A stretch of 64,000 nt of DNA from NCBI GenBank assembly GCA_947179485.1, contig OX359249.1, forward strand, positions 49,177,402 to 49,241,401, written 5' to 3'. Made by a program: the position numbers and the translations under genes. This document shows positions 597-61,497 of the stretch, piece after piece. Positions within the stretch are counted from its first letter, which is position 1. Each line of letters starts with the position of its first letter. The notes beneath the pieces were generated by a model. It searched no databases. It was not told the DNA's origin and worked only from the letters and a program-made list of their open reading frames with translations. The stretch is from Allacma fusca (taxonomy: Eukaryota > Arthropoda > Collembola > Symphypleona > Sminthuridae).

Positions 597-601
597 TAAT
601 T

Positions 602-13337: not shown

Positions 13338-13338
13338 T

Positions 13339-13356
13339 TGGTCCTTCGAACCGGAT
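13339..13356 (+). other. tRNA primer-binding site
   Basis: TGGTCCTTCGAACCGGAT begins one base after the 5' LTR. It starts with the complement of a tRNA CCA end and contains TTCGAA, the complement of a T-loop. The tRNA species was not identified. Confidence 0.75.
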
Positions 13357-13427
13357 AGCCGAATTAAGGAGTGAATCAGTATTGTGTTTGTGATAAGACT
13401 ATTTAGTGAATCTCAAACTAGCACAGA

Positions 13428-15048: not shown

Positions 15049-15072
15049 GGAAACGAGATCTACGCTCAGGTC

Positions 15073-18507: not shown

Positions 18508-18555
18508 TATTTCAGATCTTCGTTTTGAAAGAATGGTCTTTCAAGGTGGGGTGTA

Positions 18556-19332
18556 TGTTGCGTCCTACACTCTCATCTCTTTTTAGAATAAATGTTCCTA
18601 ATCTGTATTATACATAAGTCTTACTTTTTGCAAAATCCTTCATTATTATTAGAATGAATATCTAATCATGTTGAACTACAACCTGATAACCTTTGTAACA
18701 TTGCTCCCTGTATGTTGCACATAGATGTGCCCATAATGTAAATTAATGTTGGGGCTTTCGCTTCTTAGGTCTGTTTACTTTCGTCTAATGTAAATAATTA
18801 GTGATTGTCTGTCGCTTCCCCGCTGTGAGGTAAAGTCGATGACCGGTTATCTGTGCTGGTCAACCTGGAAAACAGTCAACCAATCAGGCTCTTTGCATAG
18901 GATGCTGACTGTCTCTCTATTCCTGTTGGCGTGGGTCACTATCGTCTATAAAAAGGGATTCTTTGCCCATGGTCCAGTGCTCTCTAAAACTTCAGGTAAC
19001 GACAGTCAAGACTTTGAGAATTGTCGCTACATGTTGTTAGCTAGAGGCCTCCAAATAAGTTGTCATTGACTGATTGGCTATTGTTTACTCTATTGCAGAA
19101 CCTCATCACTGGAAGCTGACGTCAATCTATTTCTACTATATTTTTAATAAATTAAAGTTGCTTCAGTTATAGTTAAATAAAGCCCGCAATTAGTAGTTAA
19201 CTCAGCCACTCACCCGCTTTGCTTATTTTGGAAACAGTAAAATTGTGCATCGAAATTGAGCATGAACATAGAACATTTTCTGAACCCTGAAACTCTAGAA
19301 TTAAAATTCATACAGTCCACTAGTCCCAAACA
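18556..19332 (+). repeat. 3' LTR of the BEL/Pao element
   Basis: 777 bp, nearly identical to the 5' LTR. The two differences I see are T for G in ACTTT(T/G)TGC near 18627 and C for T near 19251. It is preceded by a purine-rich tract (AAGGTGGGG) and followed by the CAAAG duplication. Confidence 0.95.
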
Positions 19333-19636: not shown

Positions 19637-20296
19637 TCATCTGTATTTCTCATAGTGCATACACTCAAAAATTACGTGAAAATAATTTTCCACTATTTTC
19701 ATGTTACATAATTCACATTCTATCGTTCTTTCATTTTTCCATATTGAATTGATTTCATTTAGGTATCCCTTATGTATAATTATTTTGTAAACATGAACTC
19801 TTAAGTTCTGTACTAATTGAACATTCTTCCAACATTGATTTAACATATAGTGCTCCCTCATAATTACTTTTCTTTTAACTAGTGATTGCTGGGACAGTTT
19901 TTCATTTGATTGTATGCTTCTGACGTCTTCGTTTACTGACCAAAGATAGTATTTTACAATAAGTTCCCGCTTGGCTTCATCTTCGTTTCGCATGCATTTT
20001 TGAAATTCCTCTGTAATGCCCGCGTCTGTACATAATTTCTCCAGTTCTGTTAACCAGTTCCATTTTGTTCTTTCCTTTTTCTTAATTTCCTTCTGGCACT
20101 TTCTTGTAAATGAGGTGTTCTTTCTTGCTAATATGAAAACGTCAATGGAATTTACAATGGTTTTAAATATTGTGCATTTTATGTTCTCCGTCTCTAGTTC
20201 TAGTCGTAGAGCATAAGATGGAGTGTTATTGGATGTACCAGTCAGTCTTCTTAAGAATTGCGTTTGGAACATTTCAGCTTCCTTGATATACTTCAA
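19637..20296 (-). CDS. C-terminal zinc-finger domain of the non-LTR ORF2
   Basis: 219 residues, helical and Lys/Glu-rich, ending in a CCHC finger (CELCNMKIVENYFHVIFEC). This type of finger follows RT in many APE-type elements. The frame is intact to its stop at 19637. Confidence 0.7.
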   Translation of the reverse strand: MKYIKEAEMFQTQFLRRLTGTSNNTPSYALRLELETENIKCTIFKTIVNSIDVFILARKNTSFTRKCQKEIKKKERTKWNWLTELEKLCTDAGITEEFQKCMRNEDEAKRELIVKYYLWSVNEDVRSIQSNEKLSQQSLVKRKVIMREHYMLNQCWKNVQLVQNLRVHVYKIIIHKGYLNEINSIWKNERTIECELCNMKIVENYFHVIFECMHYEKYR

Positions 20297-20744
20297 TCCC
20301 CATATCGGGAATGCGTACAGGAGCGTTGATGTAACTAATGCGTTGAATAGTTTTAAACGATTTACAGTGTCTTTTATTTTCGCTTTATAGTATACCTCAA
20401 AGAGTTTCTCCTCTGCTCTCTTTGATTTTTATAAGAAGTGTTCCTTCGCCATTTTAAAAGATCCTGTGTTTCTGAAAGGTACCCCGAGGTATGTATAGGA
20501 TCTCCACTTTTTTCTCGTCCTACATAATAATGTCATTCCTTCTGTGTTTTCCATTTATTGTAAAAATCACCACTTTGGTCTTGTCCACGTTAACCTTTAG
20601 GTTGTTTCCTTCAAACAACTTCTTCAGTACATCTATCTGTTTCTGGAGGTCTTCTTTAGTTGTTACAATGAGTACCACGTCGTCCGCATATAATAGAATG
20701 GTAATTATTATAGTGTTAATTCTGATACCCTTGATTTTTCTTTC

Positions 20745-21176
20745 TTATAGTAATTTGACAATCTTGTCTATATACACTGAGAATAGCGTAGGCGATAATG
20801 TTTCTCCCTGCAAGTCCTCTTTCAAAATTTTTATGAAGTTGCTCTTCCCTTCCCTTCCTCTAACCCAAGTTTTTGCATTGTCATACATGCTCTTGATTTT
20901 AAGGTATAGCTCTACGCTGATGTCTTCTTCTCTTAGTCTGTTCCATAGTAGTTCTTGTACTATGGAATCGAAGGCTTGGCTCAAGTCTACAAATAGAGTG
21001 TACAGCTTTCCTTTTCGTTTTGAGAGTTGCATGTAGATTACAGAATTTAACGTAAATACGTGCTCTAAACATCCTTTCCCCTCTTGATATGCAGCTTGAT
21101 TTTCTGTTATAGTTCCTCTGTCCTTACAATGTTTCTTAACCCTTTCGGCAAGAAATATAGTGAATAACTTAACCAC
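20745..21176 (-). CDS. Reverse transcriptase palm fragment
   Basis: 143 residues with RT motif A (FVDLSQAFDS) near residue 67 and motif B (QGETLSPTLFSVYIDK) near residue 120. The YADD box follows in another frame at about 20685-20700, so a frameshift separates them. Confidence 0.85.
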   Translation of the reverse strand: MVKLFTIFLAERVKKHCKDRGTITENQAAYQEGKGCLEHVFTLNSVIYMQLSKRKGKLYTLFVDLSQAFDSIVQELLWNRLREEDISVELYLKIKSMYDNAKTWVRGREGKSNFIKILKEDLQGETLSPTLFSVYIDKIVKLL

Positions 21177-21290
21177 CTTGTTTAGTAGAGAGTTAGGTAT
21201 ATAGTTTTTGGGTTCCTCTTTGTTGCCCTTCTTATGAACAGGTTGTTATTTGTACAGTTGTTATTTCCCCCAGTAGTCTGGTATTTATAC

Positions 21291-21510
21291 TTTCAAGATG
21301 TTATTAAAGGTTTCTGTTAGTCTTTCTAATTTCCTTTCAAGATGTTATTAAAGGTTTCTGTTAGTCTTTCTAATTTCCTTTCAAGATGTTATTAAAGGTT
21401 TCTGTTAGTCTTTCTAATTTCCTTTCAAGATGTTATTAAAGGTTTCTGTTAGTCTTTCTAATTTCCTTTCAAGATGTTATTAAAGGTTTCTGTTAGTCTT
21501 TCTAATTTCC
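21291..21510. repeat. Five exact copies of a 44-bp unit inside RT
   Basis: Five head-to-tail copies of a 44-bp unit beginning TTTCAAGATGTTATTAAAGG. On the minus strand one unit encodes KLERLTETFNNILK, the normal continuation of the RT fingers. The four extra copies add 176 bp, which shifts the frame. The copies look identical, so the expansion is recent or reflects assembly. Confidence 0.95.
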
Positions 21511-22168
21511 TTTCATCAATGTTCTTCCACATCTCATTCGGGATCCCATCACTTCCTGGAGATTTGTTATTTGCTAATTTACACAGCGATCATCACTTCA
21601 GTTATATCAAGTTCTCGGTTCTTCTTTCGATGTCTTATTTATATACGGTTGTATATCTCCTCCCGGCATTTGTTCAACTTCGAATATACTTTTAAAATAA
21701 TTTCTCCATTTTTCGTTCGCATGTTATCTGGTTTTCAACGAATGCGTGTTTTGGATCTGTAAAGCAGTTTATTGATTTCCAGTATTCGTCGGGTTTTTAG
21801 CTTGTTACACCCCTCTTGTAATTCGTTCAAAGTAGGCTTTCCTTGTATGTACACATACTTTCTGATAGTTTTGTTTTGCATCATATAGTTCTAGTTTTGT
21901 TATGAAGTTGATTTTGTCTTCCTGTCTCAGCCTGCGTATGCACTTCCGGACCACCTTCTTTATTTCTGTGCATTTTCCATTGAACCACTTTGGGCCAGGA
22001 GTATTGTTAATCACGTGATATCCTTTGCAATTCATGCCTACATTTAAGGCTGCTTCTCTGATGCGTTCATTGAAGCCGGACATATTGCCCATCATATGGT
22101 ACCTTCTTGCCGTTATTTCTTCTAATTTTTCTGTAAATTCCGTTTTCTTTCCACTATACTAGTGTATT

Positions 22169-22657
22169 TTATGTAGATTCCATTTCCTTTTGATTCCGAA
22201 TTCTTGCAATAAGGCCCCCTAATAACATTACGTCGTTTGTTTTCAAATTGTATTTTCGCAGTACCTGATTGCACAGTTTTATATCATCTGTTGGCGATAT
22301 GTAAGTGAATATGATATAGCCTTCGTTATCTTTAAGCACTGCGTACCTTCTTTCCTCCCTAATTATCTTAACCTTATTTTTCAACTCCTTCTTAACTCCT
22401 ATAACTAGTCCACCTGCCGGTATTCCTCCTGTCTCCCTTGCTTCGATACATGTTACATCAAAATTATGCATATACTTACAATTTGCTAATGACTTCAATT
22501 CACTGACCCACGTCTCACATATACAAAAAATACTTGGTTCTTTTTTTAAAATCTGTAGTTTTTCTGCTAGCTGATCTTTTAAACCTCGTACGTTCCAGAA
22601 TATAACCTTATTTAGTTTTTCATTTAGTTGTAAGGGCCGGCCTCCTCGGTTTTCCAT
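22169..22657 (-). CDS. ORF2 N-terminus: apurinic-type endonuclease fragment
   Basis: 162 residues. It starts at an internal ATG and includes VIFWNVRGLKDQLAEKL and FCICETWV, the first two motifs of APE-type endonucleases of non-LTR elements. A frameshift or stop ends it before the SDH motif. The reading frame also extends upstream of this ATG towards the LTR insertion. Confidence 0.75.
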   Translation of the reverse strand: MENRGGRPLQLNEKLNKVIFWNVRGLKDQLAEKLQILKKEPSIFCICETWVSELKSLANCKYMHNFDVTCIEARETGGIPAGGLVIGVKKELKNKVKIIREERRYAVLKDNEGYIIFTYISPTDDIKLCNQVLRKYNLKTNDVMLLGGLIARIRNQKEMEST

Positions 22658-22709
22658 TCTTGTACTTTTCCCCTGCTTTCGTTTTTCCTCTCTGTATTTC
22701 TTGGCCTTC

Positions 22710-23312
22710 TGATGCGTTGAGCAAAATAAAGAAGTTGAGGAGAAGTTTGTTCAGACAATATTATTTATTTGAACTGATCAAATCCCAAAATTGTACTGAT
22801 TTTACATGCTGAATATGTACGCTATTTATACTAAAGTTAGAAGGACAAAATATGTCAAAAAACAACTTTAAGGTAAATTTGTACAAGTAAAATCTAATTA
22901 AAGTTGACAATAAGAATTGTAGGAAAAAGTAGAATTATTCAATTTGTTGTTCTTAACTAATTAACATATACGCAAGCAGGCTCTCGTCCGTGGTTTCATC
23001 TTACCACGGAAGTGAGAGGCAATCAATGGTTTAAGGATTGTGTGTGACGGCATTGTCATTGAACTTCATGCTCAACCGCACACAAATGGGAAACCTGTTA
23101 TGAACGGGATTCCTTGTGTGGACGGGAAACCAGAAGGTCGTCTTGTCCACACTTACAATGTCAAGATAAAGAAACATGTAATTAATACTTGTTTCACAAG
23201 TCATCTTCCTTTTGGGGAATTTTGTTTGTGAGCAACAGGTACATAATCACACGTGCGTATTTGCTTACGTAAATACGTAGTTATATAATAATATTGTTTG
23301 CATAGCACAACA
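22710..23312 (-). repeat. 3' LTR of the giant element
   Basis: 603 bp, matching 36521-37123 except at 23056. It lies 79 bp beyond the polyprotein stop. Adjacent outside sequence is the CCTTC duplication within the non-LTR host element. Confidence 0.95.
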
Positions 23313-23391
23313 TTCTGCCAGCCTTGATTTATCTAATCAAAACTAATTCTATACATGTTAAACTAATTTTAATGTTAATTCAAATATTGTT

Positions 23392-26329
23392 TTACAATAG
23401 CTTCTTAATCATCGCTTGGGATCCTAACCATAAGGTAAGGATGATAACCGCTATGATTACAAGAACAGTAACACCTCTAATAAACCAGTTGTACCAACCT
23501 AATCCTGTGAGGGAGAGTAGGCTGAATCCGGTATGAGTATCAAGTGGCTCATATGCAACTGTCATGTGACTGTTCCTTACATCCACATTACTCAAATATT
23601 GAAGGTGTCCCTTTATATCTAATTTGATGGTATTTTTAGAACATTTAAATTCACATTTCATATCAACTTCTGGTGTATCTAACTTAATAATTAAATGATG
23701 AGCTTCTGAGTCCGTCTTCAATGGTACTGGAATAAAGAATCCAGCATCGGCGCATTCTAGACTGGCTACAGTTTCTCCATGTTCAACCTTAGCTTCTAGA
23801 GTTAAAGTTGCTCCTTGAAGGCAGCTGTAACATCCTTCTAGTTTGATGAATTCGGCGAAGCATTTTGATTCTTCCACCTCCTTGGTGAGGTGATAGTTTT
23901 CGGTGACGATTTGAAGTTCCAACAACGTGTTAGTTGATGATTCGAATACTATATCGTCTTCATGTCCTAAAAGGATTCCGTTTGCTATCTTCAATGGCAT
24001 CGGATTGATGGCCATTAACTTCTCTGGGTCCAATAGTTCCGAGATACATCTGACTCCATCTAGATCTGCGATGGCTCGTATGAGGTGCATACTTCCAAAA
24101 CAGTTTTGATTCAATGCCTTGGCGTCTTGAAGTGTGTTGCACTGAATTTCCCCAAGTTTGTTGAGAGTTGTTTCTTCCCTGGAGTTACATGGTGCCAGAG
24201 CGGATTGTTTTCCTTTTGTTAATATACAATCGTTTAATAGAGGCATGGGAGGAGTAGATATTGATACTAAGGTAAAGGTTATCCCATCAATTTCTTGATT
24301 TAATCCAGCGTCCAATCTAGTTTCGTTCCGGATTATTTTGTCTCCCATGTTCAGAGTGATAACTAAATTGCTTGAAAAGGTCCATTCAGGGCAATTGTAG
24401 ACAGCGTAGGCTTCATTTGTAGGGTTTTCCAACCAAAGTCGGTAATAATTACAGTCCTCAGTTAGAATCCATGGGCATTTCGGGTGTCGAAGGCCCTTAC
24501 AATAGGACCATCCGAGGTGTCCCTTAGAGTCCTTGAATCCTTTGACGGTATCGTTGGTTTTAAAGTCTCGGCATTTATATCCGTGACATTCAGCGTCAGA
24601 GTAAAGATTATAACATAAGAATGAGCTGTGACAGTTGGACACTGCCTTCGGTACGTAGTACAACAATTGCTTTTTACATTTTAAGGCTACAGATTTAGTT
24701 TCCACAGTAATAGTTCCAAGTAGTTTGTTGTGATTATCTTCAATTCTGAAGCACGATTGTTGTCCTAAAGGGCTGAGAGCTAGTCGAGTATTAATTCTTA
24801 CTGAACAAGCTATTTCATTTTCTGAGTTTACAGTACATTCTCTGGATGATGTCGTCATTGCTGCAAAGTTAGAACATGAGTATGCTCTGGCGATAAGTGC
24901 AGCGAGAATAATCGAGATTCCCAGATAAGCACCAGGAAAATAACGATTTGGTCGATTTCGTCCTCGAGGTCCAGTAGTCCGCACTTCATCTACGGATGCC
25001 AATGTTGTTGGTTGATAAGGGTTGGAAGACTGATCCAAGAGGGGATGTTCATCATCGTCGTTTCTTCTATGTACTCCACGTACATTTCGTTGTCGTTGTT
25101 TTCTTTGACGTTGTATGCGTAAACATACTCTTGCAGGCCAGCAAGCGTACCATGATATCCACATCAGTGCTCGAGTTACATACATTACAAGTATAATGAT
25201 GATAGCCAAGGTGATTCCAAGGGTTGATAATATAATCCACTGGTAAATATTGTAACAGGACACATTTCCCCAGCGGTCCATGCATAGGTGGCATGTTATA
25301 AGTTCACACACTGGTATTCGTGGGCAGTTTCTTTCGAGCATCGTGGGAGAATCGTAGTTGGGAAACCACAATTCAATAGTTAATTTTCCGGTTGCGGTCA
25401 GCATATTATTTGTTAAATGCACTTCTGTTGATTCTGAAGTTGGCATAGTTGAAACAAATCCTGGATTCTTCTGGGCTTTAATGTATCTTGCCACCTTTCC
25501 TGGTGTGGTGACCTTTAAACCGTAGCGGGTGCATTCGGCTTCACAATCGTCACATTCGTAGTGATCTTGAGTTTGGCTTCGATCTTCCTTCCGGGTTAAG
25601 GTGTAAAGATGTCCCCAGCAAGTAGGAGTAACGTCTCCTTGATCCGTTTTGATTTTGTAAACAACAGTTTTAGGGTCATATGTGCAGACACAGTTAGTAT
25701 TTTCTGGATTACACATGAAGTATTTGCAGAATACTGTGTCACCTCTACATTGTCCCATGGCACAGTCAACATTTTCACAATTTCCAGAACAGTTATAAGA
25801 TGCGAAGCGTTGTAGTTGAGGTTCTTGTCGTAAATGTAAAGATGAGAGGGGGTACACTTTATCCCTAATAGTTGCTACTGGTACATATTTCACTTCTTCG
25901 ATAAAATGTCGACAATGTCTAAGTATGTAGTCACCAACAGCACAGAAGTTACTTTGAGTGCCGGGTAATTCCAGTAAAGATCCATCAGTTGATAATTCGT
26001 CTGTTTGACAATCCAATTGGTCTAGTTCCAATTTGTTCCATTTGGGGCAGGCGTCTTCTGGTTGGATGCAACCCTTTGCTTCCGTATTGACTGCTTGTTT
26101 CGATGCACAGGCGTGAGTTCGATAGCAAATATTTCCATCCGGAAGTATTTTTAACCATTGAACACTTCGGGTACACATGGGAATCTCGTGATGAGTGTTC
26201 CATTGATATTTGCACACCGAAAAGATTGAGGTCATTTTATTCTTAGTTTCTGCTTCAGCTCCGGTATGGGTTATCGCAAGAAATAGAATTAGCAGTGTCG
26301 TAAGGCATGATAAATTGCATGAGATGGAA
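23392..26329 (-). CDS. Phlebovirus-like two-part envelope glycoprotein
   Basis: About 980 residues. A signal-like segment (LTTLLILFLAITHTG) starts a Cys-rich Gn-like ectodomain (26230-25260) with several N-glycosylation sites, ending in a membrane segment (WIILSTLGITLAIIIILVMY) and a basic cytoplasmic stretch. A second signal (GISIILAALIARAYSCSNF, about 24930-24870) starts a Cys-rich Gc-like ectodomain (24870-23500) and a C-terminal anchor (VTVLVIIAVIILTLWLG). Two glycoproteins, each with its own signal and anchor, follow phlebovirus Gn/Gc order. Acquisition of phlebovirus-type Gc by BEL/Pao elements is known in nematodes. No furin-type site or fusion loop was assigned. Confidence 0.7.
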
Positions 26330-29300
26330 AATCGTCTTCCCTCCTGCGGCCAAAGTAGTTGACAATACGCCTTTCGGTATTGTTGGTTCATAATTGTATA
26401 GATCAATAAGTTCAAACAGGGTAGAGTCCAAGTAAGAGCGTCGCAAAACAAGATGATGTCTTGATGGACTGTTTCCTTGGAGATTATGGTGTGTATAGTC
26501 AATGCAGGCATATAACACATTAAGAAGCAACCAAATATTATGACTATAGACCTAGTCAGTTGTTTTTCTGCGGTAGTAGCGAAGTCCAAAGTTTCACTAT
26601 TTTCGATGTTTCCTCTGGATTGACAACGTCTTAAGGCCTTCCTGGCTTTTACCACATGATAGAGGATAGCGATGTAACACATGATCGTGGTGATAACTGG
26701 TACAATTATCTGTAGCAAGATCATCATTGTCCGAGGTGATCGTCCAGATTTATCTGCTCGTAGATAGCAACTCTTATATGAGGTGATATAGGCAAATTTT
26801 CCCCATATGCCCAATAGTGCTGGTATCATGAATCCGTAGCTTAAGATCCAGATTCCGATTATAACGAGCGTAGTTTTCCGATAAGTAAAAACGCGATGGT
26901 ATAAATGGAAATGAACTATCCGTATATACCGATTGATAGTGATCGTTGTAATAGTTATTATAGAGCAGGTCACGCTTCCATAATATATGAACGGTCCAAG
27001 TTGACACCAACTGCTGTCCTTAACCCAAGTTAGACCGGCATGTCGAAAAGCCGTGAATGGTAGGGCTATTACGCTGAATAGGAAATCCGAAATACTTAGG
27101 CTGAGGGTAAACCAGGTGGTTGTTTGTCTTCGTAAAGATGATGAATTGCAGAGAGCCGTTACGGTCATAATATTTCCAAGTGATCCAATCACGGATAAAA
27201 ATATGGCGTAGTACATCAATGCTGGTTTATGTAGTTCTCTTGTTCCAGGTTTACTGGCTTCTGTAAACTGGTAAGTTCCATTGTCCGTGGTAGTTTCGGT
27301 GAAATCCTCCGGAAACTTGGTTAAGGGTTGTTCTTCACACATGGTGGTGTGTATTAGACACATACATATAAATGTACTGATCCATTTTCTGGGGGTAGTT
27401 CTTTTTCTTGTTCTCTTGCGAGTTAGCAAGGTTGCTGTAGATATTTTCTTCTCGTCCATATCTTCAGATTGAATGTCGTCATCCATGGGTAGTTTTGCTA
27501 GTTTTGTGATGGGCCTCACAAATTCTTTCGTAAACTTTTCGGTTTGTCCCTTTTTGCTACGGTACGAACCTTCGGTTTCTACTGTAGTTACTCTGACCAA
27601 ACCATCTTTGCCGGGGTGAGTTTCCTTGATTCGACCCAACTTCCATTGCATGGGAGGTAAGTTATCTTCCATTACCAGTACCATGTCTCCAATGTTTAGA
27701 TTTGGTTGGGTACTTTGCCATTGACTTCGGCGTTGTAGGGTTGTTAGGTATTCTAATTGCCAACGTTTCCACAGTTCAGTGGATCTTCGTTGAATGCGTT
27801 GAAACTGATCCAGTCGGTTGACATTCAGGTTGGTTAGATCGTGTTCAGGTGTCCACATCAGAGATGTTCCCACCAGAAAGTGAGCTGGAGTTAGAGCCTC
27901 CAGATCATGAGGGTCAGTAGACATCGGCGTAAGCGGTCTGGAGTTTACCAATGCTTCCGTAAAAATGAGTATGGTTTCGAATTCTTCAAAGTTGTAGATA
28001 TCTTGATCCACAATTTTCTTCAAGTAAGTCTTCACGAGCTTTACGCAAGCTTCCCATACTCCACCTTGGTGTGGTGCTCTTGGAGGATTGAAGTGCCAGT
28101 TGATTTTTTCTAACTGAATGTCAGGTAGAATTTTGTCCTGGGCTTGCCTTAGTTCCATGAGTGACTCCACTGTCGTACTCATATAATTGTTAGCACCAAC
28201 AAAGTTTAGACCGTTGTCGGAATATATATCGGATGGTCTGCCTCTTCTAGCCATAAATCGGCGTAAGGCTAGAAGAAATCCTTCGTAGGTCATTGAACTG
28301 ACCAGTTCCAAATGTATCGCTCGGGATACAAGGCATGTAAATAGGCAGATCCACACTTTAAATTTAGTGGATCGATTTCCACAGAAGTTCTTCAGTTCGT
28401 AGGGTCCAGCGTAGTCTACTCCTACGAGTAGAAACGGGCGAGTTGGATTTAAGCGGTATGCTGGCAAAGGTGCCATTAATTGCTCCATGGGTTTTGCTCG
28501 TAAACGAAAGCAGAGTACACATTTGTTGATGATACTCTTCACTGTGCGATTTCCTCCATGGATCCAGTAACGCTGACGGATGTGGTTGTAAGTTGTTCTG
28601 AAACCGGCGTGTGCCAATAACTGATGATAGTGGAGAATCATGCTGCTCACTATAGCATCACTGCCTGGAAGTAGAGCGGGGTGTTTGATGTGGTAGGACA
28701 GATTGTCATTTCGCAACCGTCCTCCCACACGCAAAATTTGTTGATGATCGAGAAATAGACATAATGTTCGTAAATGACGATCTGTCGTGATCTGTGACTT
28801 GTTATCAGTAAGATTCTGAATAACATCCGAAAAATATTTTTGTTGAAGTAGACGGGTGAGTAAATCTTCGGCGTTGTCCAATTCTCGTGGAGTTGGTGGG
28901 TTTGTCCAATTAATCCGGAAACTGTGTAAAAGTTTCACTCGTTGTAGTAGGACCATGGTAGCTAAGATTTTCTTCCAAGATGAAATGTCTGCCAAATCTT
29001 GAATGATAGTACGCATGTCTATCTTCTTTTGTATGGCCAGAACTATTTTCTTTTCTTCGCCAGTAGTTGTGTTTCCATCCAGTGACATCAGGTCGGGAAT
29101 GTTATACGTGGTTTCTGCCAGCCATGAGGGTCCATTCCACCATAATGCATGTGCAGGTAATTCTTCTGGGGAAATACCTCTGGACGCACAGTCGGCTGGG
29201 TTGTCTTCTGAACGCACGTGGTGCCATTGTGATGAATCGGATACGTCTTGAATTTGTTGAATCCGATTGGCCACGTAAATTTTCCACCGGGATGGTGATG

Positions 29301-32300
29301 ACTGAATCCAATGTAGCACTATTTTTGAGTCCGACCAGTAATGGGATGTCTGGATAGGTACATTCCACGTAGTTCGTACGTGATGCATTAATTGCGCTAG
29401 TAATACAGCCCCTTGAAGTTCCAATCTTGGAAGGGTGAGTATTTTTATCGGAGCAACTCGAGTCTTGGCCACAACTAGACGGGAAGTAACTTGATTGTTA
29501 TGAACCCCTCGCAGGTAAATAACAGCTGAATAGGCCTTTTCACTGGCGTCAGAAAAGCCATGTAATTCGTAGACGTTGTCGTCCACATACTGCAAGTATC
29601 TGGGTATGCGAATTGATTCCAAGTTGAACAACTGGGAGGCATAATCAATCCATAATGTTTGCAGGTCCTCGGGTAATTCTTGATCCCACTCGAGGTCCCT
29701 TGTCCAAATTCCTTGCATTAGGATTTTTGCTTTGACTATCGTGGGTGATAGCCAACCTAATGGGTCATAGATTTTCGAAATTTCAGATAGCAGAGTACGT
29801 TTAGTATGTGATTTCTTCCATTCGATCGTTACTTGGAACGAGAATAAATCGGTAGCTGGGTTCCAACGGAGTCCTAGCGTCTTAACGGTATCTGATTCGT
29901 CAATCTTCATGGGAATTTGAGTTTCCCGGTAATCTTCAGGTATATTTTCCAATACCTTAGTAGAGTTGGAGCTCCATTTCCTTAGTGCAAAATGGGCTGA
30001 AGAGAGCATTTTGATGAGTTGATTTTGCAGCTCGATTGCAGCTGCTTCATCTTTGACCGATGCCAAGAGGTCATCCATGTAGAAATCCTGGAGAACTGTA
30101 TCCGCGGCTTGCGGAAAGTTGTCCCTTTCGTCTTCGGCTACTTGAATTAAAGTGCGGCAGGCCAAAAAGGGTGCAGGTGAAGTCCCAAACGGAATTACGG
30201 TCATCCGGTAACTTTTTAGTGGTTGGGACGGATCTGGTCTCCAAACAATCCGACAATAATCTCTGTCATCCGGGTGAACTGAGATCTGTCGGTACATGGT
30301 TTTGATGTCAGCAACTAAGGCTACGGATCGTAGCCTGAACCGGAGTAAATGATCAAACAGTTTCGGTTGAACTGTTGGTCCAGGTATCAGTATGTCATTA
30401 AGTGACACACCTGTAGAAGTACTAGCTGAAGCATCGAACACTACCCTTAACTTGGTGGATGTGCTCGAAGCCTTTATCACAGCGTGATGTGGCATGTAAT
30501 AAGAAGGAGTCTTATTAAGCTCAGCTGGAGGTACTTCTTCCATCTGATTGAAATCCAGGTATTCCTGGAGTTGTGCATGGTACGATGCCATGGCTTCGGG
30601 ACTCCGTAGTATTTTCTTTTCTACGGACATCCAACGGCTGGTGGCAAGTTCTCGTGAACTGCCGAGTTCCGGGTGTTCAGGTTTGAACGGCCACCGGACT
30701 TGGTATTGACCATTATCCAACCGTACGGTATTAATTTTGTAATGGTTTTCGCAAATCTGCTCCTGTTCAGTTAAAGCCTTCTGCATCGGTATTTCTTCGA
30801 TGTTCCAGAATTTTTCTATGTCAAATTCCAGTTGCTTTGACGGGTAGACAGTGAGTACTTGATTGGCATGTTGAGCAGGAATAGGTCCCATGACGATGTA
30901 TCCCAAATCCGTGGAGTATGCACTGGGGGTCCCTCGTTGTCCTCGTATTTTTCTACTTCGGAAAAGCCGGTCAATCACGGGTATTCCCAATAATACGTGT
31001 ATAGGTCCGGGTAGGCTGAAGTCTGGGTCTGCCAAAGGTACTTTTACCAAATGGTTCCAGTCTTGAATGTCAATGGGTTGATTTGGAAGATCCGCGGTGA
31101 TTTCAGGTAGGATATGAGCGTCGATCTGAAATGTCTTGTCGGGATATTTCAGGGATCGGATCCAGAATGATGTCTTGCCTAAGACGGGTAAATTATTACC
31201 TCCAGCTACGGAAAATGATTCATCTCCGGCTGTTTTAGGTAATTTTAGTCGATTCACGACTTTTTCAGTAACAAAGGAATTCTGAGCGCCAGTGTCTAGC
31301 AGACAGCGAGCTAGTACAGACTGGCGGCCGTGTTCAATTGCAACGACGGCTGTCGGTAGGAGTCCCGATTCTTCACCTTCTTTGATACTTTGATGAAAAA
31401 CTGTATGTACACTAGGTTTCGGGCTGAAACCCACAGTTTTATCAGAGTGCAATGCAGTATTATGTCGTTTCTGGCAAATTGCACATGTGCGAGTGGAATG
31501 GCAATCAGTAGATTGATGACGTCCCAAACAGTTGAAACATCTTTGATTAGCCTTTATCCAATCCTTGCGTTGGGATACATTTAATCCCATGAATTGTCCG
31601 CAAGAATAAATCGAGTGAAAACTGCTCCCGCAGTAGCTACAAACTCGAAGACCGGGTTTCGGTCGTAAGGTAGGTTTACCTTGACGGGGAAGTGATTCTA
31701 CAGATGAGCTCCTGGAGCGTGTCTGGGATGTTCTCCGTTTCACCGTGGCTACGGTGCGTTTTGTCTTGAATCCTGGTGATTTTCCACGCGGCTGATTCTT
31801 CTTAGACTTGAGTTTTCTTGATCTTGGTGCACTTATTGACTCGGAGGAAGTATAACCGCATTCGCTATCCGAGGTGGCGATCATAACTCGGTGCTCTTTC
31901 CTTGAGCGAACTTGAGATTTGGAGGTATTGAGCGTCGATATACTGTTGGTGCGGATCTCCTTGGTCAGACCAACATTCTTTGCTTGCTTCTCCAAGAATT
32001 GAATACAGGTGTCCAACGCCGGTACATCATTATTTGGCAGTGATTGATTGAATTCATTTAGAGTACGAGAATCCAATCTGCCCAGAATAAAATGTAGATA
32101 CAGGACTTCGGCCTCTGTTACGGCCCCGAGTTGAACCTGTTTGAGTTGCGACCGTGTTGTCCTCACGGTGCTGATGAGTTTATGCAATCCTGTCTCACTT
32201 TGGCTAATTAGCGCGGGTAATTCCAGAAGTGGACGCAGGCATGCATGTACAGTCTCTCGTGGACTGTCGTAACGGTCGGTCATGCGTGTCCACGCAATGA

Positions 32301-33528
32301 CCCAGTTACCGTCATTGATTTGTAAATCAGAAATTGTCTCCTTTGCCTCACCATCGGCCAGGGCCTCAATCAAGAGACGCAGTTTCTCCGAGGATGAGTA
32401 GACGGTGGATGTTGCGATGAGTGATGAAAATTCACTTCTGAACATAGGCCATTCTCTGTGGGCACCGCTAAATTTGGGTACGGCCACACGAGGCGTCTCG
32501 AGACGAGAACTGGTAACAGATATGCTGAGAGATTTGCCAATATCTGTTAGATCTGCACGAACCTTTGTATACGAGGCTTCCAGCGCTGTTTGTGCATTAA
32601 GCGCAATGGTTCGCTCGTTAGGTGGCGTGGCTTGAGGGTCATCCTTAAAGTTTTGGTAACAGCTTAGTCGAAGCTTTTGTACCTCAGAATTTAAGGACGT
32701 GAGGTCATCCAAATTGATGGTGACCTGAGTCGCAGTCAGCTGAGGCCCTGATGTCCTATTATGACTCACGACTTGCTTCTCGTAATCATGTATTTTGTCT
32801 GCCAACGCATCGTGCAGATTCACATGGTCCTGCTTGGATTTCACCATGGTACTGTTGCCTGATGGTGTTCCTTGAGGAGGAGGAGAAGGTGGAGGAACCG
32901 GCGGAGGGTTTCCTGGGATCTGCTGATGGATCCCGGGACTATGCGGATTAGTCCCTTGAGATGAAATCGGCGGTGGATTTCCTTGAGAGGTCGTCTGATC
33001 AGGCTGCTGAGGAGGGAACTGCGTTTGGCCCTGTGGCTGCGTCTGTTCTCTTCGTGTTGCTCCTGATGGCCCTGCTTGTGGATCAGACGGTTGATCGGTA
33101 CCCTTCTTTGGGGGCACACTAGAGTAGTCTGGATTCTTGTCCCTTGAGTCGGAATCCGAGTCGTCAGACCGGCGTGGATCTTCGGGTTGCCCACTGCTAG
33201 TTCTGAGAGTCTTGAATCTTGTGTCGATGTCTTCTTCGTCGGTTTCTTCCGTTTCCGCAGTTGAGGAAACTGGATTGTCGTCGGAGTCGACACTGACGTA
33301 ATAATCGGCCTGAATGAGGCTACCTAAACCACTGTCTAGGATTTCTTGTTGAAGTTGAACTTCCGATCTTCGGAATCGGGCTTCTTCCTTAGCGTGTTGC
33401 TGGCTAGCAACTTCTTCTGCCTTTGCTTCTGGACTTGGGGGTTCTTCAGGGAGAATGGAGTGAAATTCAGTAAAGGAAATAGATGGATCGTCGATTTGGT
33501 CAACTATATAGAGTTTTAATATGTCCAC
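23392..33528 (-). CDS. Gag-Pol-GPCR-Env polyprotein, 3378 codons
   Basis: One uninterrupted frame. The listed first codon is GTG. The frame is open further 5' to the UAG at 33628, and the first ATG is at 32847 (residue 228), just before the Gag core. Residues 1-227 are acidic then Pro/Gln-rich. Gag with a WPMFRSEF motif is about 340-560, three zinc knuckles 630-694, protease LLDTGAQ (D745), RT YMDD (D1152, D1153), RNase H (D1327), integrase D1705, D1771, E1826, DUF5641-like to about 2010, GPCR 2015-2395, envelope about 2400-3378. Normally BEL/Pao ends after the DUF5641 region. Expression could use UAG readthrough, internal initiation or splicing; the sequence alone does not decide. Confidence 0.9.
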   Translation of the reverse strand: MDILKLYIVDQIDDPSISFTEFHSILPEEPPSPEAKAEEVASQQHAKEEARFRRSEVQLQQEILDSGLGSLIQADYYVSVDSDDNPVSSTAETEETDEEDIDTRFKTLRTSSGQPEDPRRSDDSDSDSRDKNPDYSSVPPKKGTDQPSDPQAGPSGATRREQTQPQGQTQFPPQQPDQTTSQGNPPPISSQGTNPHSPGIHQQIPGNPPPVPPPSPPPQGTPSGNSTMVKSKQDHVNLHDALADKIHDYEKQVVSHNRTSGPQLTATQVTINLDDLTSLNSEVQKLRLSCYQNFKDDPQATPPNERTIALNAQTALEASYTKVRADLTDIGKSLSISVTSSRLETPRVAVPKFSGAHREWPMFRSEFSSLIATSTVYSSSEKLRLLIEALADGEAKETISDLQINDGNWVIAWTRMTDRYDSPRETVHACLRPLLELPALISQSETGLHKLISTVRTTRSQLKQVQLGAVTEAEVLYLHFILGRLDSRTLNEFNQSLPNNDVPALDTCIQFLEKQAKNVGLTKEIRTNSISTLNTSKSQVRSRKEHRVMIATSDSECGYTSSESISAPRSRKLKSKKNQPRGKSPGFKTKRTVATVKRRTSQTRSRSSSVESLPRQGKPTLRPKPGLRVCSYCGSSFHSIYSCGQFMGLNVSQRKDWIKANQRCFNCLGRHQSTDCHSTRTCAICQKRHNTALHSDKTVGFSPKPSVHTVFHQSIKEGEESGLLPTAVVAIEHGRQSVLARCLLDTGAQNSFVTEKVVNRLKLPKTAGDESFSVAGGNNLPVLGKTSFWIRSLKYPDKTFQIDAHILPEITADLPNQPIDIQDWNHLVKVPLADPDFSLPGPIHVLLGIPVIDRLFRSRKIRGQRGTPSAYSTDLGYIVMGPIPAQHANQVLTVYPSKQLEFDIEKFWNIEEIPMQKALTEQEQICENHYKINTVRLDNGQYQVRWPFKPEHPELGSSRELATSRWMSVEKKILRSPEAMASYHAQLQEYLDFNQMEEVPPAELNKTPSYYMPHHAVIKASSTSTKLRVVFDASASTSTGVSLNDILIPGPTVQPKLFDHLLRFRLRSVALVADIKTMYRQISVHPDDRDYCRIVWRPDPSQPLKSYRMTVIPFGTSPAPFLACRTLIQVAEDERDNFPQAADTVLQDFYMDDLLASVKDEAAAIELQNQLIKMLSSAHFALRKWSSNSTKVLENIPEDYRETQIPMKIDESDTVKTLGLRWNPATDLFSFQVTIEWKKSHTKRTLLSEISKIYDPLGWLSPTIVKAKILMQGIWTRDLEWDQELPEDLQTLWIDYASQLFNLESIRIPRYLQYVDDNVYELHGFSDASEKAYSAVIYLRGVHNNQVTSRLVVAKTRVAPIKILTLPRLELQGAVLLAQLMHHVRTTWNVPIQTSHYWSDSKIVLHWIQSSPSRWKIYVANRIQQIQDVSDSSQWHHVRSEDNPADCASRGISPEELPAHALWWNGPSWLAETTYNIPDLMSLDGNTTTGEEKKIVLAIQKKIDMRTIIQDLADISSWKKILATMVLLQRVKLLHSFRINWTNPPTPRELDNAEDLLTRLLQQKYFSDVIQNLTDNKSQITTDRHLRTLCLFLDHQQILRVGGRLRNDNLSYHIKHPALLPGSDAIVSSMILHYHQLLAHAGFRTTYNHIRQRYWIHGGNRTVKSIINKCVLCFRLRAKPMEQLMAPLPAYRLNPTRPFLLVGVDYAGPYELKNFCGNRSTKFKVWICLFTCLVSRAIHLELVSSMTYEGFLLALRRFMARRGRPSDIYSDNGLNFVGANNYMSTTVESLMELRQAQDKILPDIQLEKINWHFNPPRAPHQGGVWEACVKLVKTYLKKIVDQDIYNFEEFETILIFTEALVNSRPLTPMSTDPHDLEALTPAHFLVGTSLMWTPEHDLTNLNVNRLDQFQRIQRRSTELWKRWQLEYLTTLQRRSQWQSTQPNLNIGDMVLVMEDNLPPMQWKLGRIKETHPGKDGLVRVTTVETEGSYRSKKGQTEKFTKEFVRPITKLAKLPMDDDIQSEDMDEKKISTATLLTRKRTRKRTTPRKWISTFICMCLIHTTMCEEQPLTKFPEDFTETTTDNGTYQFTEASKPGTRELHKPALMYYAIFLSVIGSLGNIMTVTALCNSSSLRRQTTTWFTLSLSISDFLFSVIALPFTAFRHAGLTWVKDSSWCQLGPFIYYGSVTCSIITITTITINRYIRIVHFHLYHRVFTYRKTTLVIIGIWILSYGFMIPALLGIWGKFAYITSYKSCYLRADKSGRSPRTMMILLQIIVPVITTIMCYIAILYHVVKARKALRRCQSRGNIENSETLDFATTAEKQLTRSIVIIFGCFLMCYMPALTIHTIISKETVHQDIILFCDALTWTLPCLNLLIYTIMNQQYRKAYCQLLWPQEGRRFSISCNLSCLTTLLILFLAITHTGAEAETKNKMTSIFSVCKYQWNTHHEIPMCTRSVQWLKILPDGNICYRTHACASKQAVNTEAKGCIQPEDACPKWNKLELDQLDCQTDELSTDGSLLELPGTQSNFCAVGDYILRHCRHFIEEVKYVPVATIRDKVYPLSSLHLRQEPQLQRFASYNCSGNCENVDCAMGQCRGDTVFCKYFMCNPENTNCVCTYDPKTVVYKIKTDQGDVTPTCWGHLYTLTRKEDRSQTQDHYECDDCEAECTRYGLKVTTPGKVARYIKAQKNPGFVSTMPTSESTEVHLTNNMLTATGKLTIELWFPNYDSPTMLERNCPRIPVCELITCHLCMDRWGNVSCYNIYQWIILSTLGITLAIIIILVMYVTRALMWISWYACWPARVCLRIQRQRKQRQRNVRGVHRRNDDDEHPLLDQSSNPYQPTTLASVDEVRTTGPRGRNRPNRYFPGAYLGISIILAALIARAYSCSNFAAMTTSSRECTVNSENEIACSVRINTRLALSPLGQQSCFRIEDNHNKLLGTITVETKSVALKCKKQLLYYVPKAVSNCHSSFLCYNLYSDAECHGYKCRDFKTNDTVKGFKDSKGHLGWSYCKGLRHPKCPWILTEDCNYYRLWLENPTNEAYAVYNCPEWTFSSNLVITLNMGDKIIRNETRLDAGLNQEIDGITFTLVSISTPPMPLLNDCILTKGKQSALAPCNSREETTLNKLGEIQCNTLQDAKALNQNCFGSMHLIRAIADLDGVRCISELLDPEKLMAINPMPLKIANGILLGHEDDIVFESSTNTLLELQIVTENYHLTKEVEESKCFAEFIKLEGCYSCLQGATLTLEAKVEHGETVASLECADAGFFIPVPLKTDSEAHHLIIKLDTPEVDMKCEFKCSKNTIKLDIKGHLQYLSNVDVRNSHMTVAYEPLDTHTGFSLLSLTGLGWYNWFIRGVTVLVIIAVIILTLWLGSQAMIKKLL
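26330..27486 (-). CDS. Captured class A GPCR, Tre1/Moody-like
   Basis: About 385 residues (2015-2395 of the polyprotein). A hydrophobic leader (WISTFICMCLIHTTMC) and a Thr-rich N-terminus precede seven membrane segments. TM1 has GSLGN, TM2 SLSISDFLFS, TM3 ends TITINRYIRI, TM4 IIGIWILSYGFMIPALLGIWG, TM6 CFLMCYMPALTI, TM7 PCLNLLIY, then NQQYRKAY. The NRY in place of DRY, and the long TM4/loop match, resemble insect Tre1/Moody receptors, which act in germ-cell migration and barrier formation. TM7 has NLLIY instead of NPxxY, so signalling may be altered. Host capture is inferred from family knowledge. Cysteines for the TM3-ECL2 disulfide appear present. Confidence 0.85.
27487..32847 (-). CDS. Gag-protease-RT-RNase H-integrase region
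   Basis: This is the canonical BEL/Pao part of the long frame, starting at the first in-frame Met (MVKSKQDHV). Three knuckles are intact: CSYCGSSFHSIYSC, CFNCLGRHQSTDC and CAICQKRHNTALH. Protease has DTG, RT has FYMDD, RNase H has FSDASEKAY. Integrase has VDYAGPY, YSDNGLNF and HQGGVWEACVK. The C-terminal domain ends GKDGLVRVTTVE and so on. All catalytic residues are present and nothing breaks the frame, so this copy may be retrotransposition-competent. Confidence 0.93.
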
Positions 33529-33795
33529 AAACTCTTGATAAAATTCTTCGTTGAGTTCAACGGCTAGTTTCCTGGCTACTGCCTTTTGAAATTTTCGAAA
33601 TATAACGACAAAATCGTCGTCTGTGGGCTAATTTCCAGCGTTAAAATGGCGTGGAAGTTCGACAGTAAAATTGGTAGGTGATACAATGTGGAATTTGAAA
33701 TTCTGCCTTCGGCGTAGAGTTTCTTCTACGGGAAATGCGAGAACCTTTGGTGATCCGGTACCACCTTCCTTGGCGGCTTGTAATCTTTCGGCTAA

Positions 33796-35380
33796 GGGGG
33801 CATGCACAAATTATATAACGCTAATTTGCCACATTTTTGACCACCTCCGACCCCGCGTAACGCATACGTAACGCTGTCATCTAACCCCCACCATCATACA
33901 TAACGCAATGATAACTAATTTAATTTAACCGATAATAAATGTTCATTATGATATGCCTTAATTTAATCCAAACTTTGCATAGATCATACGGCGTAGTTTC
34001 CTCAGCCGATCTTCGGGTACCCGAACATCGGATGGTACTGGACAGGCCTCTTTAGCATGAAAAGGACTTGAACAACTCCAACAGAACCTGCCGTAAAAAT
34101 GTATCCGAAAATTGTTTGCACTTCATTCCTTGTCAAATCAGTGACATCCCACGTAATAAGCTGTAAAAAATGGCGTAGAATGCTCCCAGCTTCTGTGTCA
34201 GGTATTTCTGTCAGTAGAATGACCTCTTCAGTCGTAGCCAGCTTCGTTTGTGGTGTCACGGCAGATATTCTAAAATGAAATAATAGAAGTAGTAACATAA
34301 GTAAGAAGGTACATGGGGTGTTATAATTAATATTAAGTCTAATAAAAATATATTGTTACCTTAAAAAGCACCGAAAAGGGCAATCTAAAGTTTGATGATC
34401 GTGGGCTTCACAATTCATACATGAGGAGTCACTAAACACCGTGATTCCACTTCTTACCCTGGGGTACCCCAGGGTGAGTTGTTCTTGAAGGACAGCTATT
34501 TGTTGAGTCTGCTGTTGTATAGTGCTATTCTGCACGGCCAGCGTCTGATGAAGTTCCGTAACTTCTTCCCTTAACTGATCTTGTTCCAAAGACATTTGCG
34601 CCATCATCTGTGACAACTCATCAACCTCATATTCCATTGTAGGATGGAGCAGGATAGTAGAGATTGGAGGTACCCCCTTTCTGCATATTGGACACCTACA
34701 AAATTAAATACATAACAATTTAAAGGATTTAATCAAGATTTTCAGGATTTTCATCCTCTCCTCTCTTTTCTTAATGACAGTTGCCTTTAATAGTGCGTTA
34801 AATAGATTTTTCAAAACTGATTTACTGTAAATATGTTAACAGTTTTTATAAAATGAGACTAAAATTCACTCCGGCTGGGATCGCCTTTGGGAGTGCTAAA
34901 ATAATTACAATAAAGTAATAAAAATATACAACTTACATGTTTGTATTAAGCGATCTATCCTTTGCAACATCCTGTGGATTCAATCTGGCTAGTTGTGCGG
35001 CGGCTACAAACGATTTGTCCAGATAGTCAGTGTGGAATACATGACCACAAGAAGTTGTTACGATCGCAGATTCTTCAGGGGTGCCCCTGAAGATCTCGAA
35101 GCAAGTGCCACATCCGAAATACTTTGTCATGATGAAATTACTCGTGTCTTGTAGAAATTGCAGTTCTTTGATTTTCCCACATATTCTTAAAATTTAAACC
35201 TCGCTCCCAAATATTTTCACTAAATATTCCAAGAATGCCTACGCGTTAAAATCGGGTCTAATCAAATATTGCGTTACGTAAAAGAGTACACAGGTACTAC
35301 CTACTGTGCGTAACGTTAGCGTAACGTTAAGAAAAACCACCACCGATCGACTAAGCGTTACATAATTTGTGCATGCCCCC
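33796..35380 (-). mobile_element. Harbinger-like TIR element carrying a RING-finger gene
   Basis: Ends GGGGGCATGCACAAATTAT and its complement, with TAACGCT following, are perfect or near-perfect terminal inverted repeats. They are flanked by TAA duplications (33793-33795 and 35381-35383). The 3-bp TWA target and G-rich ends fit PIF/Harbinger. There is no transposase ORF. Instead it contains a three-exon gene on the minus strand. It sits inside ORF-B of the young giant element, so it is the newest insertion of this nest. Confidence 0.88.
34002..35130 (-). CDS. Spliced RING-finger/coiled-coil gene inside the TIR element
   Basis: Three exons: 35130-34937, 34695-34360 and 34272-34002 (third exon starts at the acceptor near 34269), with donors GTAAGT and GTAACA and AG acceptors. 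The total coding length is divisible by three, giving about 265 residues. The RING spans the exon 1/2 junction: CGTCFEIF, CGHVFH, then CPICRKG in exon 2. The sixth ligand (C after HxxH) is Tyr in HTDYL, so zinc binding may be incomplete. A Gln-rich coiled coil (EQDQLREEVTELHQTL) and a small Cys/His cluster (CMNCEAHDHQTLDC) follow. RING proteins are usually E3 ubiquitin ligases. Exon 3 has a hydrophobic stretch near its end. It is probably a captured host gene, resembling TRAIP-type RING/coiled-coil proteins only loosely. Confidence 0.75.
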
Positions 35381-35875
35381 TAAGTAGTTATACTTTCTTG
35401 TAGCCTTCGGTGTTTCACTTGCGGGAACAGTGGCAGCTGCAGCTGCGGTTGCACTGAGTACCTTCGCGGTTGGGGGAGGTTGTCTCTTTCGGATCTCTTG
35501 AAGGACCCACTGATCGATATCCGGGTAATTTTGTTTCAGAAAGTAGAGATTCAAACGGATCTTCGTACGTATTAATTCGTCGACCTTTGTTTGATTACCA
35601 GCCTCTTCATATAACTCGATGCCCCACTGGCAGAGATAGTACTGGTACTTCCAGTAATCTATGTCGTAATGGTCTCGACGAATTCTTCCGGTTTTTTCAC
35701 TTTTGGTACCGGGAATTCTCGTGTCCGGGTCAGTGTAGTTTTGTAGATCTTCCCACTGAAACATTGACTGACTCTGGGGTTTTGTAGGTCATTTGTGCCC
35801 CTCGCGGAGGGGAAATGTGCTAGACCGACAATACCTTAAGTAACAGTTAGAATTATAAAAAGCGATTGCCGTTTT

Positions 35876-36235: not shown

Positions 36236-36500
36236 AAATGGAGGAATTAGGTTAAGCAACGTCCGGGAGACGATGAAAACCTGGGTACCGGCGGGTATCG
36301 CGGCAGCGAGCGATGATCCGGGTAGCGGGATGATGCGGGCCAGAAGAAGGAGAGTGGCGGAAGAGCCAGGAGACGACACAAAAGGCAGTTGACGGGGCTC
36401 GGCGGGGGGCAGGACCTTTCCGGCGGCAGCAACTGGCGTCCTTCTGCTCGGAGCACAATTCGGGATGAATCCGGGGCGGGAGCCTGGAGGAGACCGTAGT

Positions 36501-36518
36501 CGATAAGTCGGGGAACCA
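36501..36518 (-). other. Primer-binding site of the giant element
   Basis: On the minus strand, TGGTTCCCCGACTTATCG starts two bases after the 5' LTR and begins with TGG, the complement of a tRNA CCA end. It differs from the site in the smaller BEL element, so a different tRNA primer is likely. The tRNA was not identified. Confidence 0.65.
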
Positions 36519-36520
36519 AA

Positions 36521-37123
36521 TGATGCGTTGAGCAAAATAAAGAAGTTGAGGAGAAGTTTGTTCAGACAATATTATTTATTTGAACTGATCAAATCCCAAA
36601 ATTGTACTGATTTTACATGCTGAATATGTACGCTATTTATACTAAAGTTAGAAGGACAAAATATGTCAAAAAACAACTTTAAGGTAAATTTGTACAAGTA
36701 AAATCTAATTAAAGTTGACAATAAGAATTGTAGGAAAAAGTAGAATTATTCAATTTGTTGTTCTTAACTAATTAACATATACGCAAGCAGGCTCTCGTCC
36801 GTGGTTTCATCTTACCACGGAAGTGAGAGGCAATCAATGGTTTAAGGATTGTGTGTGACGGCATTGGCATTGAACTTCATGCTCAACCGCACACAAATGG
36901 GAAACCTGTTATGAACGGGATTCCTTGTGTGGACGGGAAACCAGAAGGTCGTCTTGTCCACACTTACAATGTCAAGATAAAGAAACATGTAATTAATACT
37001 TGTTTCACAAGTCATCTTCCTTTTGGGGAATTTTGTTTGTGAGCAACAGGTACATAATCACACGTGCGTATTTGCTTACGTAAATACGTAGTTATATAAT
37101 AATATTGTTTGCATAGCACAACA
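36521..37123 (-). repeat. 5' LTR of the giant element
   Basis: 603 bp. On the element's strand it begins TGTTGTGC and ends CGCATCA. It differs from the other LTR at 36867 (G here, T at 23056). The 63-codon ORF seen on the opposite strand is repeated in both LTRs and is not supported as a gene. Confidence 0.95.
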
Positions 37124-51833: not shown

Positions 51834-51840
51834 GTGCTCA

Positions 51841-54206: not shown

Positions 54207-54221
54207 TACAGCAAAAGCATG

Positions 54222-61490: not shown

Positions 61491-61497
61491 TTAGTAT

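Follow-up and report, generated by a model that had tools for sequence, protein, structure and literature searches.

A Tre1/moody-family receptor between Pol and a phlebovirus-type envelope in BEL/Pao retroelements of the springtail Allacma fusca

Introduction

The BEL/Pao retrotransposons of nematodes include elements with a phlebovirus-like envelope gene. Across the group, env is described as present in some elements (PMC8742986; PMC3118150). The path that takes such env-bearing retroelements from the soma into the germ line is not settled, and in Drosophila a transfer route from soma to germ line that operates without Env is reported (PMC11952523). Here we describe a BEL/Pao-type long terminal repeat (LTR) element of the springtail Allacma fusca that carries a G protein-coupled receptor (GPCR), related to a receptor that moves germ cells in flies, between its Pol and its envelope. 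The element lies on the minus strand, at 22710-37123, of a stretch of 64,000 nucleotides (contig OX359249.1, positions 49,177,402 to 49,241,401), called the window throughout.

The receptor belongs to a family of which one member, Tre1, acts in cell movement. Tre1, moody and CG4313 are described as one GPCR family (PMC8540695). Tre1 is required for primordial germ cell migration in Drosophila, where the Arg of its E/N/DRY motif is reported as critical (PMC2911388), and it has also been reported as necessary for hemocyte extravasation (PMC6122984). Because paternal genome elimination is reported in A. fusca (PMC9630974), the routing of an element to the germ line may have unusual stakes in this species.

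Results

A single frame joins Gag-Pol, a GPCR and a two-part envelope

The element contains a stop-free frame, Gag-Pol-GPCR-Gn-Gc, on the minus strand (23392..33627; 3411 codons from stop to stop, first ATG at residue 261), in which residue n corresponds to window position 33627-3(n-1). Pfam profiles place along it DUF1759 of Gag (residues 386-528), an aspartyl protease (residues about 774-841, below the cut-off), RVT_1 (residues 1100-1216; 27.9 bits, slightly under the cut-off of 29.6), Peptidase_A17 (residues 1275-1434), Integrase_H2C2 (residues 1662-1709) and DUF5641, where Pol ends (27493..27807, residues 1941-2045). This order of protease, reverse transcriptase and integrase, together with Peptidase_A17 and DUF5641, is that of a BEL/Pao Pol; Peptidase_A17 and DUF5641 score far over their cut-offs, the protease and reverse transcriptase under theirs. 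The frame then continues through the 7tm_1 core of a class A GPCR, assigned below to the Tre1/moody family (26398..27177, residues 2151-2410, E 1.2e-33), a Gn-like glycoprotein (Phlebovirus_G1; 25135..26118, residues 2504-2831, E 2.2e-19), a Gc-like fusion glycoprotein (Phlebovirus_G2; 23908..24876, residues 2918-3240, E 9.6e-62) and the C-terminal domain of Gc (Phlebo_G2_C; 23431..23865, residues 3255-3399, E 1.7e-12). An earlier note on this DNA, made from its letters without database searches, had read one open frame that leads from a BEL/Pao Pol through a class A GPCR to a two-part Cys-rich envelope. That reading is borne out, as are the profile checks against 7tm_1 and Phlebovirus_G2 that it proposed. 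It had placed the receptor at residues 2015-2395; the receptor is present, with a core that begins later.

The envelope is of the phlebovirus type: G1, G2 and G2_C all exceed their Pfam cut-offs, and each glycoprotein has one terminal anchor (residues 2797-2815 for Gn and 3383-3401 for Gc). The same note had credited the envelope with signals of its own, and hydropathy peaks are found before both glycoproteins. The segment read as a signal peptide before Gn (26269..26325, residues 2435-2453) exceeds the threshold in all eight element representatives that were compared, and a further hydrophobic segment precedes Gc (residues 2897-2915). A third segment, before the GPCR, was read as a signal peptide by eye (27337..27381, residues 2083-2097), and a similar W-I segment stands at this place in the other groups of the element; it is over the hydropathy threshold in six of the eight representatives and below it in L001, the window element's own copy, where the segment is too short to reach it, and in L016. 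No Met lies between DUF5641 and this first segment in six of the seven L027-group copies examined, which suggests synthesis from a polyprotein or from a spliced message with its own AUG. The product can be read as a signal peptide, a receptor with its N terminus outside and its tail inside, a second signal peptide, Gn with its anchor, a third signal peptide, and Gc with its anchor.

The Pol-GPCR-Env order recurs throughout the genome

The A. fusca genome (392,743,791 bases in 91 contigs) was searched for related sequences, the best candidates being scored, so that the counts that follow are lower bounds. The assembly, qeAllFusc8.1, is reported at 392.8 Mb from 80-fold HiFi reads (PMC10427803). 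The receptor piece gave at least 108 matches, which are matches rather than copies and include host GPCR exons. The top 12 span all 389 residues at 97-100% identity, and 11 of them are stop-free; further element-type receptor matches mostly fall at 92-96%, 69-76% and 32-48%, with open frames of up to 3,651 residues.

Fifty loci were inspected, namely the 30 leading receptor matches and 20 selected from later rows. The GPCR is preceded by Pol (integrase or DUF5641) and followed by Gn in 28 of the leading 30 (exceptions L021 and L024) and in 16 of the later 20 (exceptions L041, L045, L046 and L050). The search for further Pol-GPCR-Env junctions, which the earlier note had called for, thus yielded 44 of 50 loci, and the order is present on all six chromosomes. 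Many of the 50 are frameshifted or decayed in other ways; the pieces stand in one frame in L001, L022, L029 and L032. By identity, at least five groups share Pol-GPCR-Env: L001 (the window element), L016, L022/L023, L027/L034 and L031/L033.

The GPCR marks one clade of integrases. A query of integrase and DUF5641 gave 94 scored matches divided by a clear gap, 47 at 63-100% identity versus 47 at 43-48%. A GPCR match lies within 3 kb downstream of 45 of the 47 upper matches (at least 63%), and none of the 108 receptor matches lies within 10 kb downstream of any of the 47 lower ones, which often sit in frames of about 1,700 residues, suggesting Gag-Pol alone. The two upper matches without a GPCR within 3 kb are both on contig C8, near 51.34-51.36 Mb; in the one of these two stretches that was read (L053), a frame resembling the reverse transcriptase of a long interspersed nuclear element occupies the expected place of the GPCR.

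A query with Gc gave a similar picture. A receptor match lies no farther than 4 kb from 45 of the best 52 of 93 Gc matches. The remaining seven include one with the GPCR at 11 kb, two truncated upstream (L052 and L053) and two equal-score Gc matches at 50%, where at the locus that was read, L051, neither Pol nor Gn nor the GPCR is recognised at E 1e-3. These best 52 of 93 matches yielded no clean env-only intermediate, so the order in which env and GPCR were gained cannot be set. Beyond A. fusca, a narrow search, made without other springtail or insect genomes, found no relative: with the receptor part of a 2,411-residue piece, not one of 1,213 candidates reached E 1e-3, and a search of viral contigs gave no match.

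The earlier note had allowed that the GPCR might be a single-copy host exon placed here by misassembly, or that the junction might occur in no other copy; both fail, the junction being repeated at many places. Misassembly and a single-copy host exon are ruled out by the 44 inspected loci with the junction and the 45 upper integrase matches with a GPCR. More generally, that the arrangement is an assembly artefact, a chance fusion or a functionless passenger has a negligible probability, given the recurrence on six chromosomes in an 80-fold HiFi assembly, a predicted A. fusca protein on a separate 5,580-bp contig that matches 67% of the receptor piece at 99% identity, and, for the passenger, the purifying selection on the GPCR described below.

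Two features of individual copies were observed in passing. In the decayed copy L021 (G000:C9:1368185-1371967), a piece of the receptor around transmembrane helix 3 is tandemly repeated many times with a 37-base step. Two equal-score copies in opposite orientation (G000:C1:180042-181079 and 195258-196295) are separated by about 14 kb close to one end of chromosome 1 and probably belong to a large inverted duplication.

The receptor derives from the Tre1/moody family

The receptor is a class A GPCR by its 7tm_1 match, helical bundle, Cys pair and anchor residues, with exceptions in helix 1 and in the NPxxY motif. Its AlphaFold model (mean predicted local distance difference test score, pLDDT, 76.5) is a helical bundle, which Foldseek matched to class A GPCRs with GPR84 ranked near the top. 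Among solved structures, GPR84 and the melatonin receptors come closest in sequence.

A profile built from eight element receptors found, as its best protein outside A. fusca, ant moody (E 4e-57). A 20-row tree placed the elements in one clade (support 97/96), sister to ant moody (99/99). A search of the genome with ant moody returned the elements and three host loci: a moody gene on chromosome 4, in at least four pieces, and genes on X1 at about 34.36 Mb and about 51.0 Mb. When the three host genes were added, the eight element GPCRs were still one clade (92/98). Membership of the Tre1/moody family against melatonin-type receptors had a support of 99/99 with ant moody and of 99/98 with ant moody and the three host genes.

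The host gene at 34.36 Mb on X1 was the top-scoring of the four compared genes with all eight element receptors. An intron, with splice signals read by eye, divides the Arg codon of ITIN-R-YILIAHY in this gene. In Drosophila tre1, exon 5 is reported to open with RYILIACH immediately after intron 4 (PMC2911388). The intron position and the RYILIA motif being common to both, the host gene is very probably Tre1. The label moody, taken from the profile search, was accordingly replaced by Tre1-type once the host genes had been compared. The element receptor crosses the same site uninterrupted, and this lack of host introns is as expected of a captured, spliced mRNA.

The receptor is under purifying selection

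The ratio of non-synonymous to synonymous divergence (dN/dS; NG86, 300 codon bootstraps) between element GPCRs was 0.10 (0.06-0.15) for L001 against L016, at a high dS of 1.4, 0.04 (0.02-0.06) for L022 against L023, at a high dS of 1.6, and 0.09 (0.04-0.13) for L031 against L033, at a dS of 0.33. For several other pairs dS was saturated and gives no ratio, and L027 and L040 are near-identical, which makes their ratio uninformative. Among 11 near-identical copies the corresponding ratio of polymorphisms (pN/pS) was 0.17 for the GPCR, from 19 synonymous and 11 non-synonymous variant codons. The same count gave 0.18 for integrase (11 copies), 0.54 for DUF5641 (12) and 0.33 for Gn (7); the copies had been pre-filtered as stop-free, hence their zero stops prove nothing. 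The element GPCR is under purifying selection. Taken together, the comparisons demonstrate the capture of the GPCR and the constraint on it, and we infer how the receptor might be processed and what it might do.

Constraint extends to the residues on which signalling depends. Eight aligned receptors share 52 invariant columns, including D89, C116, N140-R141, W168, C195, P218, Y226, P282 and N314, and both the R of the NRY motif and the Cys pair are among the invariant residues. The invariant columns also take in what we number as the helix anchors from helix 2 to helix 6, with a Pro in helix 5 and another in helix 6. The exception in helix 1 is a change of Asn to His in the L027/L034 group.

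These residues bear on two explanations in which the receptor would not signal. It might sit in the particle envelope beside Gn and Gc and bind a ligand on germ-line or other cells, for targeting or co-attachment, with no signalling in the producing cell; the shared frame and the topology reading, which would put all three in the same membranes, speak for this. The R of NRY and the two helix Pro residues (helices 5 and 6) are, however, invariant in all eight receptors, beyond what binding needs, and we consider the explanation unlikely. The seven-pass segment might instead be a mere membrane spacer or a chaperone for the production of Gn and Gc, comparable to NSm and non-signalling, as its place upstream of Gn with signal-peptide-like segments on either side would allow. 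Conservation of the GPCR switch residues and a dN/dS of 0.04-0.10 argue against a spacer, phlebovirus-type envelopes elsewhere presumably work without such a segment, and we regard it as very unlikely.

The receptor also appears to have moved between subgroups. In L031 and L033 it is 84-94% identical, versus 58-81% over the 1.8 kb before it and 58-77% over the 2.6 kb after it (steps of 200 bases), and identity returns to 85-92% in the kilobase that opens the locus. At synonymous sites the receptor has diverged by 0.33, and integrase and Gn are saturated. The simplest reading of a receptor closer than its flanks is that recombination swapped blocks, the receptor included, between two subgroups.

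A proposed role in reaching the germ line

We tentatively favour, as quite plausible, the view that an endogenous, env-bearing BEL/Pao lineage transduced a host Tre1-type mRNA between pol and env, and that the receptor is made with Gn and Gc and moves the cells that produce it towards the germ line. Long ago, a spliced mRNA of the host GPCR would have been transduced into the gap between pol and env. A polyprotein, or the product of a spliced mRNA, would now enter the endoplasmic reticulum, where signal peptidase would cleave ahead of each of the three products, the GPCR, Gn and Gc. The seven-pass receptor, Gn and Gc would then reach the cell surface, in a layout resembling the phlebovirus M polyprotein, in which the GPCR would take the upstream position. 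There the receptor could signal in the producing cell and cause migration, polarisation or the crossing of epithelia, as Tre1 does, and element-bearing cells and enveloped particles would be brought to the germ line. If access to the germ line benefits an element, a receptor of this kind would benefit it in the particle-producing cell. That the element might target migrating or germ-line cells had been suggested in the earlier note: the Tre1/moody kinship, and the intron position and RYILIA motif that a host gene shares with Drosophila Tre1, add to the suggestion, and the targeting itself we still infer.

Several observations weigh against this proposal. The X1 gene at 34.36 Mb is sister to the elements at just 74/74, in a tree built without Drosophila Tre1, and the X1 gene at 51.0 Mb was compared as an incomplete exon set with fewer residues. 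In the window element's group the first signal-peptide-like segment is under the hydropathy threshold, and the Gag leader of the window copy is broken, so that its 5' end is not intact. All eight aligned receptors lack the Pro of NPxxY, and the L027/L034 group has His in place of its Tyr; the host X1 gene lacks this Pro too. Between the large groups, where synonymous sites are mostly saturated, dN is higher in the GPCR (0.5-0.6) than in Gn (0.3-0.4) or integrase (0.2-0.3), and this faster divergence means that the ligand or the role may drift.

A bolder version of the proposal holds that the lineage stole the Tre1 germ-cell guide, which has been selected through at least five groups, exchanged as a module, and used to direct infected cells or particles towards entry into the germ line; we regard this as possible and lean against it. 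Alternatively, the receptor might change signalling in host immune cells or barriers, either as a ligand sink or as a constitutively active switch, in the manner of herpesvirus GPCRs. Virus-borne GPCRs such as US28 and UL33 are described (PMC8879092), and the reported part of Tre1 signalling in hemocyte extravasation (PMC6122984) would fit such a role. No feature specific to it was seen, however, and the multiplication of the element in the germ-line genome would favour germ-line access as the selected trait, which makes a sink or switch distinctly unlikely.

Structure of the window copy and neighbouring elements

The window copy measures 14,414 bp between its outer LTR ends, of which 1.58 kb is a later insertion. 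Its 5' LTR (36521..37123, minus strand) and 3' LTR (22710..23312, minus strand) are each 603 bp long, within the 0.2-1.2 kb of BEL/Pao LTRs, and match at 602 of 603 positions; on the minus strand they start with TGTTG and end with CATCA. A 5-bp direct target duplication, CCTTC, flanks both (22705-22709 and 37124-37128). The near identity of the LTRs points to a recent insertion of this copy. A candidate primer region lies just inside the 5' LTR (36480..36520, minus strand), the expectation for BEL/Pao elements being complementarity to tRNA-Arg or tRNA-Gly.

Upstream of the long frame is a conserved N-terminal Gag leader frame (35380..35788, minus strand), 100% identical to a copy on chromosome 1 over the 63 residues present there and 44% and 32% identical in two other groups. 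It is cut by a 1,583-bp insertion (33797..35379) that has inverted ends of about 26 bp inside the insertion, or 31-nt arms counting 5 flanking bases, and a split RING-like frame. The insertion, probably a DNA transposon, is missing at the same site in a copy on chromosome 1, whose two blocks of matching sequence share an overlap of 5 bp. It breaks the leader frame in the window copy, and the region of the Pol-GPCR-Env finding stays open. The RING-like frames, considered as genes of the element itself, are ruled out because they sit in this separate insertion within the leader.

Other repeats surround the element. A second BEL/Pao element (12561-19332, plus strand) has 777-bp LTRs (99.7%), a CAAAG duplication, DUF1759, Peptidase_A17 and DUF5641; its frames are broken, with a stop at 15046-15048, and no envelope domain was found in the pieces searched. 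Elsewhere in the genome, an ordinary BEL element has five evenly spaced integrase matches, each about 6,136 bases from the next (G000:C12:14820844-14846610), a tandem retroelement array. An open frame of 391 residues (374-1549, plus strand), with signal-like and C-terminal membrane segments by eye, is perhaps a surface protein of another element. Frames on the minus strand (19637-22750 and 50108-54230) resemble, by eye, two non-LTR retrotransposons with endonuclease and reverse transcriptase, the former region holding a 44-bp tandem repeat at 21246-21559. A 39-bp tandem repeat occupies 11871-12177, and two near-identical stretches about 50 kb apart (9850-10764 and 61056-61497) look like copies of one small transposon.

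Comparison with known systems

Our literature search, which mostly did not reach subscription papers, found no description of an LTR element that carries a GPCR. The transduction of a host gene by a retroelement is a known kind of event, here with a cargo for which no precedent was found. If the bolder version of the proposal is true, no LTR retroelement or retrovirus was known to carry a GPCR before this one, and a germ-cell homing pathway is linked directly to germ-line invasion. GPCRs join the gene types transduced by reverse-transcribing elements. The link between receptor signalling and germ-line invasion is testable, and the lineage offers a natural experiment on which receptor features persist when a GPCR serves a parasite.

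Virus-borne receptors offer one comparison. Herpesvirus GPCRs differ from the element receptor in being carried by large DNA viruses as separate genes, in their kinship to chemokine receptors and in the absence of reverse transcription. The likeness is that US28 and UL33 are virus-borne, host-type GPCRs described as linked to cell migration in vitro (PMC8879092). CrocERV29, a crocodilian endogenous retrovirus, resembles the element in having captured a host gene, the KIT-ligand, with a role in gametogenesis; it differs as a vertebrate retrovirus whose cargo is a cytokine ligand, not a GPCR, and the virus is described as non-functional now (PMC4299795).

The host family, Tre1/moody/CG4313, is matched in sequence, in the NRY motif and in tree placement (PMC8540695 and PMC2911388, as far as these describe it). 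The host genes bear introns and stand alone, whereas the element copies are intronless, lie in frame with Pol and an envelope, and lack the Pro of NPxxY. With the Belpaoviridae the element shares LTRs, a Pao-type Pol with Peptidase_A17 and DUF5641, and the env-like gene that some members have. The description of that family makes no mention of a GPCR, and the element, at 14.4 kb, exceeds the 4.2-10 kb stated by the International Committee on Taxonomy of Viruses (PMC8742986), a descriptive range and no demarcation rule, so that the element is assigned to BEL/Pao by its Pol domains.

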